A stretch of DNA of 64,000 bases, from the NCBI RefSeq assembly GCF_026000375.1, contig NZ_AP026708.1, forward strand, positions 250,501 to 314,500. Reading direction: 5' to 3'. Source of the stretch: Pseudodesulfovibrio portus. GTDB taxonomy: Bacteria > Desulfobacterota > Desulfovibrionia > Desulfovibrionales > Desulfovibrionaceae. A program made the position numbers and the translations under genes. The notes below the pieces were generated by a model. The model made no database searches, was not told the origin of the DNA, and saw only the letters and a program-made list of their open reading frames with translations. This document shows, in pieces, positions 8,831 through 13,208 of this stretch. Each line of letters opens with the position of its first letter. The first letter of the stretch is position 1.

Positions 8831-10360
8831 CTAACGTCCGGCGTGCTTGATGCCGAGGATGTCGAGTTCGGTGTCGGAAATGCCCACGCCGCGCAGTTTG
8901 TCGCGGTTGCCGCGCAGGGACTCGATGGAGTTGAGGCCCATGCCGCCGAGCATCTCTTCGATCTCGTGGCCCCAGGCGCGAATCAGGTTGGCCAGTTTCT
9001 TGGCCGCGATATCCGGGTTCTGACGCTTGGAGAGCTTGGTATCATTGGTGGCGATGCCCCACGGGCACTTGCCTGTGTAGCAGCGGCCGCAGATGGTGCA
9101 GCCCACGGCGATCAGCGTGGCCGTGCCGATGTACACGGCGTCAGCGCCCAGCGCGATGGCCTTGGTCACATCTCCCGAGCAGCGGATACCGCCCGCAGCG
9201 ACGATGGAGACGTTGTTGCGGATGCCTTCGTCCCTGAGTCGCTGGTCCACCTGGGCCAGGGCCAGTTCAATGGGGATGCCCACGTTGTCGCGGATCATGG
9301 CCGGTGCTGCGCCCGTGCCGCCGCGCATGCCGTCGATGGTGATGATATCCGCGCCCGCCCGGGCGATACCCGAGGCGATGGCGGCCACGTTGTGCACCGC
9401 CGCGATCTTGACCGACAACGGGGCCTTGTACTCGCTGGCTTCCTTCAACGCATAGATGAGCTGGAGCAGGTCCTCGATGGAATAGATGTCGTGGTGCGGG
9501 GCCGGAGAAATGGCATCGGAGCCGATGGGGACCATGCGGGTTTCGGACACCTTGTCGTTGATCTTCTCGCCGGGCAGATGGCCGCCGATGCCCGGCTTGG
9601 CACCCTGCCCCACCTTGATCTCGATGCCCGCGCCAGCCTTGAGATAGTCGCGGTGCACGCCGAAACGGCCCGAAGCCACCTGGACAATGGTGTTGGCGCC
9701 GTATTTATATAATGATTTGTGCAGACCGCCCTCACCTGTATTGTAATAGGTGCCGGTTTCGGTGGCGGCGCGCGCCATGGCCCGATGCAGGTTGAAGTTG
9801 ATTGCACCGAAGCTCATGGCCGCGAACATGATGGGCACATCCAGTTCGAGCTGCGGCGTCAGCTTGGTTTTCAACTTGGGCTTGCCGGTCTTGGTGTCCA
9901 CCTTGAAATCGAGCTTGCGCGGCTTGGCGCCCAGGAAGGTCTTGAGCTCCATGGGCTCGCGCAGGGGATCGATGGACGGGTTGGTCACCTGCGAGGCGTC
10001 CAGCAGCATGCGGTCCCAGTAGACAGGGATGTCCACGGGGGAACCCATGCCCGCCAGCAGAACGCCGCCGGTGTCCGCCTGCTTGTAAATATTCTGCAGG
10101 AACACAGGCCGCCACAGGTTGTTGGTCCTGAAATCCGAAGGCTTGTTGCGAATGTTCAGGGCCGCCGTGGGACACAGGGCCTCGCAGCGATGGCAGCCGA
10201 TGCACTTGGTGTTGTCGTGCATGACTTTTTGCCGGGCTTCATCCCAGTAGTGAGCCTCGTACGAACACTGGCGGACGCAGACCTTGCAATTGATGCACAG
10301 GTCCGGGTCCCGGTCGATACAGAACTCATGGTAGTTCTTGTTGATGGGCTGAAAAAGCAA
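8831..10360 (-). CDS. Glutamate synthase FMN subunit with N-terminal ferredoxin domain
   Basis: A 509-residue protein. Residues about 15-75 hold two [4Fe-4S] motifs (CINCKVCVRQC, CIGCHRCEALC). The rest is the GltS FMN barrel with GQGAKPGIGGHLPGEK, the phosphate-binding region SIVAAGGIRCSGD, and C-x2-C-x5-C (CTICGRCYTGKC, about 426-437) for the 3Fe-4S-type site of glutamate synthase. TTG at 10360 is the likely start, with GAGGTG about 8 bases upstream; no better ATG precedes it. First gene of the leftward cluster. The arrangement matches archaeal-type split glutamate synthase, not the fused bacterial GltB/GltD. Confidence 0.9.
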   Translation of the reverse strand: MLFQPINKNYHEFCIDRDPDLCINCKVCVRQCSYEAHYWDEARQKVMHDNTKCIGCHRCEALCPTAALNIRNKPSDFRTNNLWRPVFLQNIYKQADTGGVLLAGMGSPVDIPVYWDRMLLDASQVTNPSIDPLREPMELKTFLGAKPRKLDFKVDTKTGKPKLKTKLTPQLELDVPIMFAAMSFGAINFNLHRAMARAATETGTYYNTGEGGLHKSLYKYGANTIVQVASGRFGVHRDYLKAGAGIEIKVGQGAKPGIGGHLPGEKINDKVSETRMVPIGSDAISPAPHHDIYSIEDLLQLIYALKEASEYKAPLSVKIAAVHNVAAIASGIARAGADIITIDGMRGGTGAAPAMIRDNVGIPIELALAQVDQRLRDEGIRNNVSIVAAGGIRCSGDVTKAIALGADAVYIGTATLIAVGCTICGRCYTGKCPWGIATNDTKLSKRQNPDIAAKKLANLIRAWGHEIEEMLGGMGLNSIESLRGNRDKLRGVGISDTELDILGIKHAGR

Positions 10361-10639: not shown

Positions 10640-10668
10640 TTGACATATCAGATTGTTACGAATATGAA
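10640..10668 (+). promoter_or_regulatory. Predicted sigma-70 promoter of the attenuator/symporter unit
   Basis: An exact TTGACA (10640-10645), a 17-base spacer and TATGAA (10663-10668, 4 of 6). The expected transcript start is near 10675, at or next to the leader ATG (10676), so the leader peptide would have almost no 5' untranslated region. A weaker alternative is TTGAAT (10624-10629) with TATCAG (10646-10651). Confidence 0.55.
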
Positions 10669-10675
10669 TTTTCCC

Positions 10676-10765
10676 ATGAACACAAACCAGAACCGCTTCG
10701 GCTTCTTTTTCTTTTTTAGCTTTCGCTTTTTTAGAAGCGCCTGCGGTCTTGGGGTGTGCAACTGA
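10676..10765 (+). CDS. Phenylalanine-rich leader peptide of an attenuator
   Basis: A 29-codon frame, ATG 10676 to TGA 10763-10765. Nine of the thirteen codons from 10697 to 10735 or just before are Phe: residues 8-19 read FGFFFFFSFRFF. An in-frame ATG at 10664 would add four residues. No Shine-Dalgarno sequence precedes either ATG, which fits the very short 5' end predicted by the promoter. Its design matches PheL of E. coli: ribosomes stall on the Phe run when charged tRNA-Phe is scarce. The peptide itself has no expected function. The opposite strand shows a lysine-rich frame that is only its mirror image. Confidence 0.8.
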   Translation: MNTNQNRFGFFFFFSFRFFRSACGLGVCN

Positions 10766-10827
10766 CTTTTAGCTGATTGCAACCAAACAAGGGCCGTAGG
10801 CGACAAGCTTACGGCCCTTTTCTTTTG
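10692..10827 (+). promoter_or_regulatory. Transcription attenuator responsive to Phe-tRNA
   Basis: All four classical segments can be drawn. Segment 1 (ACCGC 10692-10696 and GCTTCT 10701-10706) pairs with segment 2 (AGAAGC 10733-10738 and GCGGT 10743-10747). Segment 2 (10739-10750, GCCTGCGGTCTT) can instead pair over 12 bases, three of them G-U, with segment 3 (10790-10801). Segment 3 otherwise forms the terminator with segment 4 (10810-10819). A ribosome stalled on the Phe codons frees segment 2 and so blocks the terminator; one that reaches the stop at 10763 covers segment 2 and lets the terminator form. Downstream genes are the symporter pair. Confidence 0.78.
10789..10827 (+). terminator. 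Attenuator terminator hairpin
   Basis: The stem AAGGGCCGTA (10789-10798) / TACGGCCCTT (10810-10819) can extend inward by three pairs. It is followed by TTCTTTT and lies 23 bases after the leader stop codon and 41 bases before the next start codon. Confidence 0.9.
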
Positions 10828-10867: not shown

Positions 10868-11002
10868 ATGATGTTGGGTTTTGGCAGTGTCGAAATTGCC
10901 CTGGCCTTTTGGCTGAGTATCGCTTCGACCATTCTGTGCGTCGTTTACGGAATTGTGAACTGGAACAACAAGGGTGACGACAAACCCGGGGGGGATGCAT
11001 AG
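10868..11002 (+). CDS. Symporter small accessory protein (44 aa)
   Basis: ATG 10868 (or 10871) to TAG 11000-11002, with a GAGGGGTAGG ribosome region just upstream. The protein is one hydrophobic helix (about residues 8-31) with the end VVYGIVNWNNKG, a pattern I associate with the small accessory proteins encoded directly before SSS-family symporters. The symporter ATG follows the stop with no gap, so the two are surely co-translated. Likely role: membrane partner needed for assembly or activity of the symporter. It is too short for most gene callers. Confidence 0.8.
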   Translation: MMLGFGSVEIALAFWLSIASTILCVVYGIVNWNNKGDDKPGGDA

Positions 11003-12610
11003 ATGGAAGGCAAAATCCTCGGCGTGCTCCTGTATCTCGGCGTCATTTTCTATCTCGGCTACCGGGCATGGAAAAACACCAAAAAGTCAACCGATTACAT
11101 GCTCGCTGGTCGGTCCATGAATCCGTTTGTACTGGCCATGTCCTATGGCGCCACCTTTGTCTCCACCTCGGCCATCATCGGTTTCGGCGGCGCTGCCGGG
11201 CTGTTCGGCATGTCTCTGCTCTGGCTGACCTTCCTGACCATCTTCGTCGGCATCTTCATCGCCATGGTCTTTTTCGGCAAACGCACCCGGCGCATGGGCC
11301 TTGCCCTCGACACGCATACTTTCCCCGAACTCCTGGGCAGGCGCTACAAATCCAAATTCATCCAGCAGTTCGCCGGTGTGGTCATCTTCGTCTTCATCCC
11401 GGTCTACGCTGCGGCCGTGCTCATCGGCATCTGCCGCATGCTCGAGGTGGCCTTCCCGGCCATCAGCTACGGTGCCTGGCTGCTGATCGTCACCGCCATC
11501 GTGGCCATGTACGTGGTCACAGGCGGACTCAGGGCGGTCATGTACACAGACGCCTTCCAGGGCTCCATCATGGCGATCATGATGCTCATCCTCATCATTA
11601 CCACCTACGTCATGCTGGGCGGCGTGACCGAAGCACACCAGGCTCTCACCGACATGGTCGCCCTGATGCCCGAAAAGCTTCTGAAAGGCGGCGTGGTCGG
11701 TTGGACCACAGGTCCGCACATCAAGTCGCCCCTTGGCCTGACCATCTACACGACCATTATCTATGGCGTGGGCATCGGCGTCCTGGCCCAGCCCCAGCTT
11801 GCCATCCGCTACATGACCGTGCCCAGTGACCGCGAGCTCAATCGCGCAGTGGCCATCGGCGGCATTTTCATCCTGCTGCTGACCGGGGTAGCCTTTGTGG
11901 TCGGCGCCCTCTCCAATGTGGTATTCTTCAATGATACCGGCAACATCGCCATTGCCGCAGCCAAGGGCAACCTGGACAGGATCATCCCGGCCTACATCGA
12001 CACCTACATGCCCGGCTGGTTCTCCGGCCTCTTCCTGGTGGCCATGTTCGCGGCCGCCATGTCCACCATGAGCTCCCAGTATCACGTGGGCGGCACGTCG
12101 CTGTCCCGCGACTTCCTCGAGCAGCACGTCAAGATCGGCAACAGCGGCTCTGCCATGAAGCTCAACCGGCTGGGCGTGACCATCGCCATCATCGCCACCC
12201 TGATCTGGGCCTGGCTGCTGCCCGGCGGCGTCATAGCCCGGGCCACGGCCTTCTTCTTCGGCCTGTGCGCGGCTTCCTTCCTGCCCATTTACGTTCTGGG
12301 CCTGTACTGGAAAGGCATGACCAAGATCGGTGCCAAGATATCCATGGTCGGCGGATTCACCTTCTCCATGTTCTGGCTGCTCTTTATCCACGTCAAGGAG
12401 GCCTCGGTCATCGGTTTGTGCCAGGCCCTCACGGGCAAGGTCACCCTGGTGGCCGACGCGACCCCCATGTCCTGGACCTGGCTCATGCAGTACGTCGATC
12501 CCAACGTGGTCGCCCTGCCCGTGTCCCTGGTCCTGGCCGTAGGCGTCAGCCTGGCCACCCGACGAATGGAACAAAAGCATCTTGACCTGTGCTGGGACGG
12601 CCTCTGTTAA
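11003..12610 (+). CDS. Sodium:solute symporter (SSS family), probably for Phe or an aromatic compound
   Basis: A 535-residue polytopic inner-membrane protein with about 13 predicted TM segments. Family features include the N-terminal YLAGRSMNPF-like turn (here YMLAGRSMNPFVLAMS, about residues 33-48), the GGLRAVMYTDAFQG block (about 174-187), typical of SSS transporters around TM5, and AAMSTMSSQYHVGG (about 352-365), the SSS sodium-binding helix region. Sequence alone does not name the substrate. The Phe-rich attenuator upstream suggests uptake of phenylalanine or a related aromatic acid. A strong terminator follows. Confidence 0.88.
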   Translation: MEGKILGVLLYLGVIFYLGYRAWKNTKKSTDYMLAGRSMNPFVLAMSYGATFVSTSAIIGFGGAAGLFGMSLLWLTFLTIFVGIFIAMVFFGKRTRRMGLALDTHTFPELLGRRYKSKFIQQFAGVVIFVFIPVYAAAVLIGICRMLEVAFPAISYGAWLLIVTAIVAMYVVTGGLRAVMYTDAFQGSIMAIMMLILIITTYVMLGGVTEAHQALTDMVALMPEKLLKGGVVGWTTGPHIKSPLGLTIYTTIIYGVGIGVLAQPQLAIRYMTVPSDRELNRAVAIGGIFILLLTGVAFVVGALSNVVFFNDTGNIAIAAAKGNLDRIIPAYIDTYMPGWFSGLFLVAMFAAAMSTMSSQYHVGGTSLSRDFLEQHVKIGNSGSAMKLNRLGVTIAIIATLIWAWLLPGGVIARATAFFFGLCAASFLPIYVLGLYWKGMTKIGAKISMVGGFTFSMFWLLFIHVKEASVIGLCQALTGKVTLVADATPMSWTWLMQYVDPNVVALPVSLVLAVGVSLATRRMEQKHLDLCWDGLC

Positions 12611-12636
12611 CCTCTTTTGATTAAAAGAAATACAAG

Positions 12637-12668
12637 GGCGCTGGAGCATGGGTTCCAGCGCCTTTTTT
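12637..12668 (+). terminator. Terminator of the symporter unit
   Basis: The stem GGCGCTGGA (12637-12645) / TCCAGCGCC (12654-12662) is followed by six T. It is preceded by TAAAAG-rich sequence 27 bases after the stop. Confidence 0.92.
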
Positions 12669-12749
12669 CGTCGTGTGCCCTGTCTGGCCGATTGACAGCC
12701 GCCCGCAATGCGACCATAAACACAGCCAACCCCATCATAAGGAAGATAC

Positions 12750-13208
12750 ATGAACACGATCCAAGTGAAGATGAAATTCATGCACCCGGTCTGGGAGGAA
12801 AACGAACTGGCCTACGCCACCGATCATTCCGCCGGCCTGGACTTGCGCGCCTGCATCGACGATGAATTCGTCGAGATCGGCCCCGGCGAGAAGTATCCCT
12901 TTCCTGCGGGCGTCGCCATCGAGGTCCTGGAGCCGTCCATTGCGGGCTATATCTTTTCCCGCAGCGGCCTGGGCACCAAGGACGGATTGACCGTCAGCCA
13001 GGGCGTGGGCGTCATCGATCCCGATTATCGCGGCGAAATCAAGGTGTCCCTGCTCAACACCTCGGACAAGGTGCGACGAATCAAGCGCGGCCAGCGCATC
13101 GCCCAACTCGTCTTCATGCCCATTTTCCAGGCCGATATCCTCAAGGTGGAGGAACTCGGCGACACCGACCGGGGAGCCGGAGGCTTCGGTTCAACCGGAA
13201 AACATTAA
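12750..13208 (+). CDS. dut: dUTP diphosphatase (dUTPase)
   Basis: A 152-residue trimeric dUTPase that hydrolyses dUTP to dUMP and pyrophosphate. All five motifs are visible: SAGLDLRA (about residues 27-34), SRSGLGTK (about 70-77), [15 protein letters not shown] (about 84-98), RIAQLVF (about 115-121) and the glycine-rich [10 protein letters not shown] tail (about 140-149) that closes over the nucleotide. ATG 12750 follows AAGGAAG. It is 10 bases upstream of the aminotransferase gene and so probably shares its transcript. Confidence 0.95.

Follow-up and report, generated by a model that had tools for sequence, protein, structure and literature searches.

Solute symporters of the sodium:solute symporter (SSS) family are hard to assign to a substrate by sequence, and the question raised by this locus is whether the regulatory RNA in front of such a gene names a candidate substrate. 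The window analysed here, a stretch of 64,000 nucleotides from Pseudodesulfovibrio portus, carries on its plus strand a gene for a 44-residue symporter small accessory protein (10868-11002; NF045580.1, 58.3 bits, cut-off 35), the stop codon of which directly adjoins the start codon of a gene for a 535-residue SSS symporter (11003-12610; PF00474, 177.9 bits). The small protein and the symporter that the original prediction had placed downstream of a phenylalanine leader are therefore both recognizable by family models. A probable intrinsic terminator at 12637-12668 on the plus strand (GGCGCTGGA...TCCAGCGCC TTTTTT) would end the operon; the terminator scan lists this hairpin on the minus strand only. 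No family model gives the symporter a substrate. The best NCBIfam model is that of the proline symporter PutP (TIGR02121), and this identity was rejected because the score of 186.4 bits misses the curated cut-off of 515.5 bits. The match to the solved vSGLT is distant (E 7.9e-16), and the source genome has a single such symporter, the next two matches being 24 and 27% identical. No close relative with a tested substrate was found: the relatives with solved structures are distant, and among the 120 proteins listed out of 6115 matches, names are absent, generic or transferred from the family. A protein of Oleidesulfovibrio alaskensis (P0074), a species used as a genetic model, is among these matches, and its best counterpart at the fetched loci, at 72.7%, is not a close one.

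The leader, read directly from the sequence, is an open reading frame of 29 codons at 10676-10765 on the plus strand (MNTNQNRFGFFFFFSFRFFRSACGLGVCN), which starts with ATG at 10676, ends with a stop codon at 10763-10765 and has nine Phe codons between 10697 and 10732, as had been predicted. The sole correction concerns position 10640, at which the region given in the original prediction begins. The program-made list of open reading frames gives the identical frame with a TTG start at 10640, but this position belongs to a -35-like TTGACA outside the leader. We predict a sigma-70-like promoter at 10640-10668 (plus strand) with TTGACA at 10640-10645, a spacer of 17 nt and TATGAA at 10663-10668, and hence a transcription start at about 10675-10676, which coincides with the leader ATG. 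In the alignment of the window's genus, CTTGAC is invariant and the TA 17 nt further on is nearly so, the sequence between this TA and the leader ATG is variable, and an extra in-frame ATG at 10664 is not conserved. The promoter is absent from the list of a consensus promoter scan of the window, since that scan demands a T at position 6 of the -10 element.

The RNA around and behind the Phe codons is also predicted to adopt competing structures. The terminator hairpin at 10789-10819 begins 23 nt past the leader stop codon and has a 13-pair G+C-rich stem, a loop of 5 and the tail TTCTTTTG, in agreement with the strong hairpin expected after the leader. Its 5′ arm, segment 3 (10789-10802), is also the 3′ arm of the antiterminator, and segment 4 with the U-rich tail (10807-10825) includes its 3′ arm (10807-10819). 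Segment 2 (10733-10750), inside the leader, pairs through 10738-10750 with segment 3 and through 10733-10747 with segment 1 (10692-10706), the stretch that would lie under a ribosome stalled where the Phe codons begin. The unbroken pairing of 10739-10750 with 10790-10801 that had been claimed over 12 bases is extended by one further pair, 10738 with 10802, to give a 2:3 helix of 13 pairs with a duplex energy of -24.9 kcal/mol, matched by none of 200 shuffled leaders. The claimed pairing of segment 2 with the start of the leader likewise holds for parts of 10733-10747. When 10676-10827 is folded, the energy is -54.9 kcal/mol, far better than the mean of -36.9 for shuffled sequence (z -4.66, with 1 shuffle in 200 reaching it), and the 1:2 pairs in this fold join 10692-10696 with 10743-10747 and 10701-10706 with 10733-10738. 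By these sequence features, the region would belong to the class of ribosome-mediated attenuators.

How would the choice between the structures be made? While Phe-tRNA is plentiful, the leader would be completed, helices 1:2 and 3:4 would form, and transcription would stop at about 10825. While Phe-tRNA is scarce, the ribosome would stall at the Phe run and cover segment 1; helix 2:3 would then pair before segment 4 is synthesized, and RNA polymerase would read through into the operon. In staged folding, covering segment 1 before segment 4 is transcribed leaves 2:3 as the minimum-energy structure (-31 to -33 kcal/mol). The 2:3 helix, and not 1:2, is still the best fold if segment 1 is left free at this stage, so any protection by 1:2 must depend on its earlier formation. 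Once segment 4 is present, the terminator fold is better than a forced 2:3 helix by about 6 kcal/mol (-41.7 versus -35.6), and read-through must therefore be a kinetic choice. The choice between structures in trp attenuation is generally held to be kinetic. An Rfam search of the window, including the amino-acid leader families and the T-box, gave no match at gathering score. Seven matches near the leader fall under it; the best of them, to the sRNA family BjrC68 (22.2 bits, gathering score 39), looks like a generic terminator match and was rejected as the identity of the leader.

We then turn to the conservation of these helices. At each of the 64 leader loci detected by script, a hairpin followed by a T run is predicted, as is a 2:3 helix within the tail of the leader, and for each distinct leader only 0 to 10 of 200 shuffles equalled the real 2:3 helix. 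Covariation was scored in an alignment of 27 sequences of the window's genus against 500 shuffles. For helix 1:2, 86.9% of the cells are paired and both-side changes occur at 6 of 14 pairs, a count reached in 4 of 500 shuffles; these are changes of Pseudodesulfovibrio and near relatives. Helix 3:4 has 94.3% of its cells paired and both-side changes at 3 of 13 pairs, again with 4 of 500 shuffles reaching the count, and these include a change of CG to UA in eight sequences. Of the compensatory changes proposed as a check on the 2:3 and 3:4 helices, those in 3:4 are thus present, whereas those in 2:3 within the genus are as in shuffled alignments: 94.6% of the cells are paired, a both-side change is seen at 1 of 13 pairs, which 233 of 500 shuffles equal or exceed, and the covariation score, reached by 419 of 500 shuffles, shows no excess. 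Helix 2:3 is uninformative for covariation in the genus because there is too little variation. Counts of pair types also show no excess, being as high in 54, 140 and 500 of 500 shuffles for 1:2, 2:3 and 3:4. At one locus (L020), linked changes keep CCGU, ACGG, CCGU and ACGG in segments 1 to 4 in standard pairs throughout all three helices. Across genera, both-side changes in 2:3 are found at several positions, such as G-C to A-U between Phe and Tyr paralogues, in a count over 36 distinct rows that was made on predicted duplexes and is biased towards pairing. When segment 3 was exchanged between groups, segment 2 paired better with its cognate partner in 47 of 56 comparisons and with a non-cognate one in 9. 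The description of the attenuator as complete holds for the window's genus and less so for Maridesulfovibrio, where helix 1:2 is weak, so that 1:2 is not a general part of the design.

The leader is widespread among orthologous loci. Orthologues of the symporter were counted in 64 of 247 genomes of the order (E <= 1e-120), in 67 of 288 genomes of the family (E <= 1e-90) and in 35 of 395 genomes of a phylum sample that includes the source genome. Upstream sequence was available for 114 of the 116 symporter places examined (L076 and L077, which lack it, were left out), and six duplicates or truncated copies (L033-L038) were excluded from the counts. The order contributes 79 loci for which upstream sequence is available: a Phe-rich leader is present at 58 and a Tyr-dominated one at 7, and 14 are without a leader; one of the Phe leaders (L053) was added by hand because the finder script demanded a promoter-like motif. 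The Desulfovibrionaceae upstream regions thus have the Phe codons and competing helices for which a search of orthologous loci had been proposed, and the comparison speaks for the original prediction, its exceptions being the 7 Tyr-dominated leaders and the 14 loci without a leader. One of these 14 follows a leader-bearing symporter gene as the second member of a tandem; another is the symporter of Desulfocurvibacter, though its genome has leaders on ADH-synthase loci. The window's genus has the symporter in 32 of 36 genomes (four have no orthologue, and two have truncated loci), and wherever the upstream sequence could be read (30 genomes), a Phe leader stands before the principal copy. Two of these genomes (G245 and G329) have a second symporter copy without a leader. 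At L073 and L075, second copies in two genomes of this genus with no detected leader, the 700 nt upstream look coding on the opposite strand. At the 35 loci from the rest of the phylum, no aromatic-rich open reading frame with a terminator behind it was found within 700 nt upstream. Some Phe-containing frames outside the order (e.g., L098 and L103) have no detected terminator and were excluded as leaders. Since leaders were detected at loci of the order alone, the attenuator looks like a gain within the order.

The predicted coincidence of transcription start and start codon recurs across these loci. Of 60 distinct leader loci, picked irrespective of promoter, 58 have TTGAC at 35-38 nt ahead of the ATG (35, 36, 37 and 38 nt in 9, 27, 20 and 2 loci); the in-frame ATG closest to 36 was used, which somewhat favours this result. 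For one of the two others (L027) the wrong frame had been picked and the real leader has an offset of 36, and the second (L053) is a genuine exception with no TTGAC at the expected distance. A sigma-70 promoter at that position would start transcription about 2 bases or less from the ATG, so the mRNA of the symporter leader is probably leaderless, with its first codon at the transcription start, and would be translated as such. A Shine-Dalgarno-like motif was found, by a crude test, before 9 of 60 leaders versus 45 of 60 accessory genes. The leaderless layout is not general in the aromatic regulon described below, as the aro-type leaders of Halodesulfovibrio (L162-L164 and L176, in three genomes) have no TTGAC or TTGAA at that distance. 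A precedent for the layout is trpL of Sinorhizobium meliloti, whose attenuator transcript, according to the available part of PMC7298713, starts at the leader ATG. The products of that leader, rnTrpL and peTrpL, act in trans, and the same layout here could mean that the terminated leader RNA or peptide does so too, with control of the symporter being secondary. The conservation of the peptide RSACGLGV after the Phe run in the genus would fit such a role, but that stretch overlaps segment 2, and RNA pairing thus accounts for the conservation. The leader also precedes the same symporter operon at 64 loci, though the leaders were found through the symporter. We regard a primary function in trans as very improbable and keep to control of the symporter operon in cis.

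Does the source genome use such leaders elsewhere? A second attenuator of similar design at about 565139-565330 (L082, L130) has the leader MHHNTARFFFFFSFYYRNACGLGVH, Phe-rich with two Tyr, and precedes a stand-alone gene for 2-amino-3,7-dideoxy-D-threo-hept-6-ulosonate synthase (ADH synthase, ADHS). A third leader, MKTTTVSNAYFSNFYFWYWYSHARGLGRGAV, combines codons for Phe, Tyr and Trp and is found on the minus strand of L131, before 7531. Behind it lies the operon ADHS-DHQS II-pheA-aroA-tyrA-trpE, in which aroA is named by sequence and place. The third ADHS paralogue of the genome (L189) has no such leader. Strings coding for FFFF occur at 31 places in the genome, one of which is the window leader; 12 of the other 30 were inspected, and they included one new attenuator, that before the ADH synthase. 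A genome scan with a promoter-ATG-GGCCGY pattern gave 43 matches versus 7 in the reversed control. Judged on the first 80 letters of each match, no attenuators other than those at 261140 and 565139 were conspicuous, and the pattern missed the leader of the aro operon. A search for ADHS listed 101 places, and 30 loci of the genus, one per genome, were fetched. An aromatic-rich leader with a terminator is present at 29 of the 30 (24 Phe-rich and 5 with Phe, Tyr and Trp), and none was found at L145. Comparable leaders are also seen in other genera, ahead of presumed ADHS genes. Leaders of the Phe/Tyr/Trp type lie beside ADH synthase genes at L146, L148, L153, L155, L161-L165, L169, L171, L172, L174-L176 and L182.

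The regulon in the source genome supports an aromatic substrate for the symporter. It also bears on how narrow that substrate is. The enzyme behind the Phe-rich leader with two Tyr catalyses a first step of the aromatic pathway as a whole. A Phe leader can thus stand before a gene that serves more than Phe, and the symporter could accordingly be a general importer of aromatic amino acids for which Phe is just the regulatory signal. Against such a breadth, the aro operon leader carries Phe, Tyr and Trp codons together, and the symporter itself has been duplicated into Phe and Tyr copies, which suggests a narrower specificity. We consider a general importer unlikely, albeit the most serious of the alternatives to a transporter of Phe itself.

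The duplicated copies are found in six Halodesulfovibrio genomes, in which tandem symporters (L059, L060, L061, L064, L065 and L066) have one MNKLNTNFFFAFFGFRGIQACGSVECVRA-type and one MNTINRHMNSYFYAYYGYRVIKTCGSVECV-type leader, for Phe and Tyr; the genus name rests on a 99.8% match of one Tyr-leader protein to a protein so named. In a tree obtained by a short search without bootstrap, the Tyr copies and the Phe copies, six of each, form sister clades (SH-aLRT 98 and 99) nested among Phe-leader loci. The simplest history is thus a duplication followed by recoding of the leader from Phe to Tyr. A seventh Tyr-dominated leader, in a Desulfonauticus-like genome, is mixed, with five Tyr and four Phe codons. 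The recoded leaders drop the U run and keep the run of aromatic codons, which indicates that the codons, and not a pyrimidine tract, are conserved. This bears on the reading that the locus has a constitutive terminator behind a pyrimidine-rich tract in which the Phe frame is incidental. Phe codons are U-rich, the columns of the Phe run are conserved as nucleotides in the genus, and FFFF-coding strings are not enriched in the genome (48 matches versus 56 in the reversed control), all of which would fit such an artefact. However, the Tyr leaders of the paralogues have no U run, the aro leaders mix Phe, Tyr and Trp, the distance from promoter to ATG is nearly fixed, and there is a second, mutually exclusive helix. 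The first two of these observations led us to reject the artefact, which can hardly be correct. The proteins of the Phe and Tyr paralogues have 31 fixed differences. When these are set beside a single alignment to vSGLT, Phe298 to Tyr and Cys422 to Ser/Thr (window numbering) stand out, and the comparison identified no binding site.

Taken as a sensor of charged tRNA-Phe, the leader would adjust the supply of what relieves a shortage of it, and this can be read more than one way. The attenuator may act as described and the symporter carry an aromatic precursor or keto acid, such as phenylpyruvate, 4-hydroxyphenylpyruvate or phenylacetate; solutes of the SSS family are very diverse, no near relative among the matches listed has a tested substrate, and a Phe-specific precursor for one copy and a Tyr-specific one for the other would fit the paralogue pair as well. 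A shortage of charged tRNA-Phe is, however, relieved most directly by Phe itself, and with pheA and tyrA present an imported precursor would still need transamination, which makes a precursor rather improbable, and more so than a general importer. Phe is thus the most direct reading of the substrate, and Tyr that of the sister copy, with a broader aromatic range or a precursor being less probable; most probably the symporter of the window would import Phe and the Tyr-leader paralogue Tyr. Our main reading is that a ribosome-mediated attenuator of the trp/phe type senses charged tRNA-Phe and controls the operon of accessory protein and SSS symporter as part of an aromatic regulon, the symporter being a proposed importer of Phe (an aromatic amino acid); we give it a probability of roughly 0.8. 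We lean slightly towards a wider proposal for the Desulfovibrionaceae, in which the leader codons mark an aromatic regulon (Phe, Tyr and Trp for the aro operon, mainly Phe for the extra first-step enzyme, Phe for the symporter and Tyr for its Halodesulfovibrio sister), the leaders are mostly leaderless, and recoding went along with a change of substrate. If recoding did accompany a substrate change, leader codons could be used to assign the substrates of SSS symporters where homology fails, and the family would have a Phe/Tyr branch.

These features have parallels in known systems. The pheA and pheST attenuators of Escherichia coli combine a Phe-rich leader peptide, alternative RNA segments and an intrinsic terminator, and the genes that they control make Phe or the Phe tRNA synthetase. 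The arrangement in the window would work like the pheA switch. Unlike these systems, its leader stands before a symporter operon and is probably read from a leaderless mRNA, and there is no Rfam match at gathering score. T-box control of amino-acid transporters in Firmicutes also raises uptake when tRNA is uncharged; there, the tRNA binds the RNA directly, without a leader ORF, whereas the window has no T-box match. Histidine transporters of Firmicutes are among those under T-box control (PMC9413887, available part). For Erysipelotrichaceae and Peptostreptococcaceae, the same part of that paper predicts attenuators with a His leader on his operons and/or on the hisZ*YX transporter, so that regulation of an amino-acid transporter through a leader peptide had already been predicted. 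That case resembles the window in being a leader-peptide attenuator predicted on an amino-acid transporter, and differs from it in concerning Firmicutes, histidine and an ABC transporter, with no leaderless layout or recoded paralogue seen in the available text. For the aroA'-aroB'-pheA-aroF-tyrA-trp supraoperon of D. vulgaris, a related bacterium with a kind of operon like that behind the aro leader of the source genome, a putative attenuator is listed that was taken from a website (PMC1173090, Table 7); the available part of the paper does not mention leader codons, a stand-alone ADHS or a transporter. S. meliloti trpL is unlike the window in its Trp codons, its biosynthetic gene and its known trans-acting products (PMC7298713, available part).

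The mechanism as such is thus known. What appears new, within the open-access literature searched, is its target, its layout and the recoding. The original claim that no description of this arrangement was known stands for that literature, in which we found no Phe leader on a symporter; most subscription papers lie beyond this coverage. The search also identified no Phe importer in a Desulfovibrio. A study of D. vulgaris reports, in its available part, no gene specifically important for Phe use (PMC10102598), and in the available main text of a review of prokaryotic SSS symporters the words phenylalanine, tyrosine and aromatic do not appear (PMC7918813). At this locus, a transporter of sulfate reducers would have joined a regulon of codon-specific attenuators, and the Halodesulfovibrio copies suggest that an attenuator can be re-aimed through a change of codons after gene duplication. 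This natural pair of Phe and Tyr leaders is a clean two-by-two test system for regulation and transport.

The surroundings of the operon contain further frames on the minus strand. Upstream of the leader, and divergent from it, a 509-residue protein with a glutamate-synthase domain and 4Fe-4S domains is encoded at 8831-10360. An open frame of 564 codons at 11087-12781 lies antisense to the symporter and is probably a by-product of composition.
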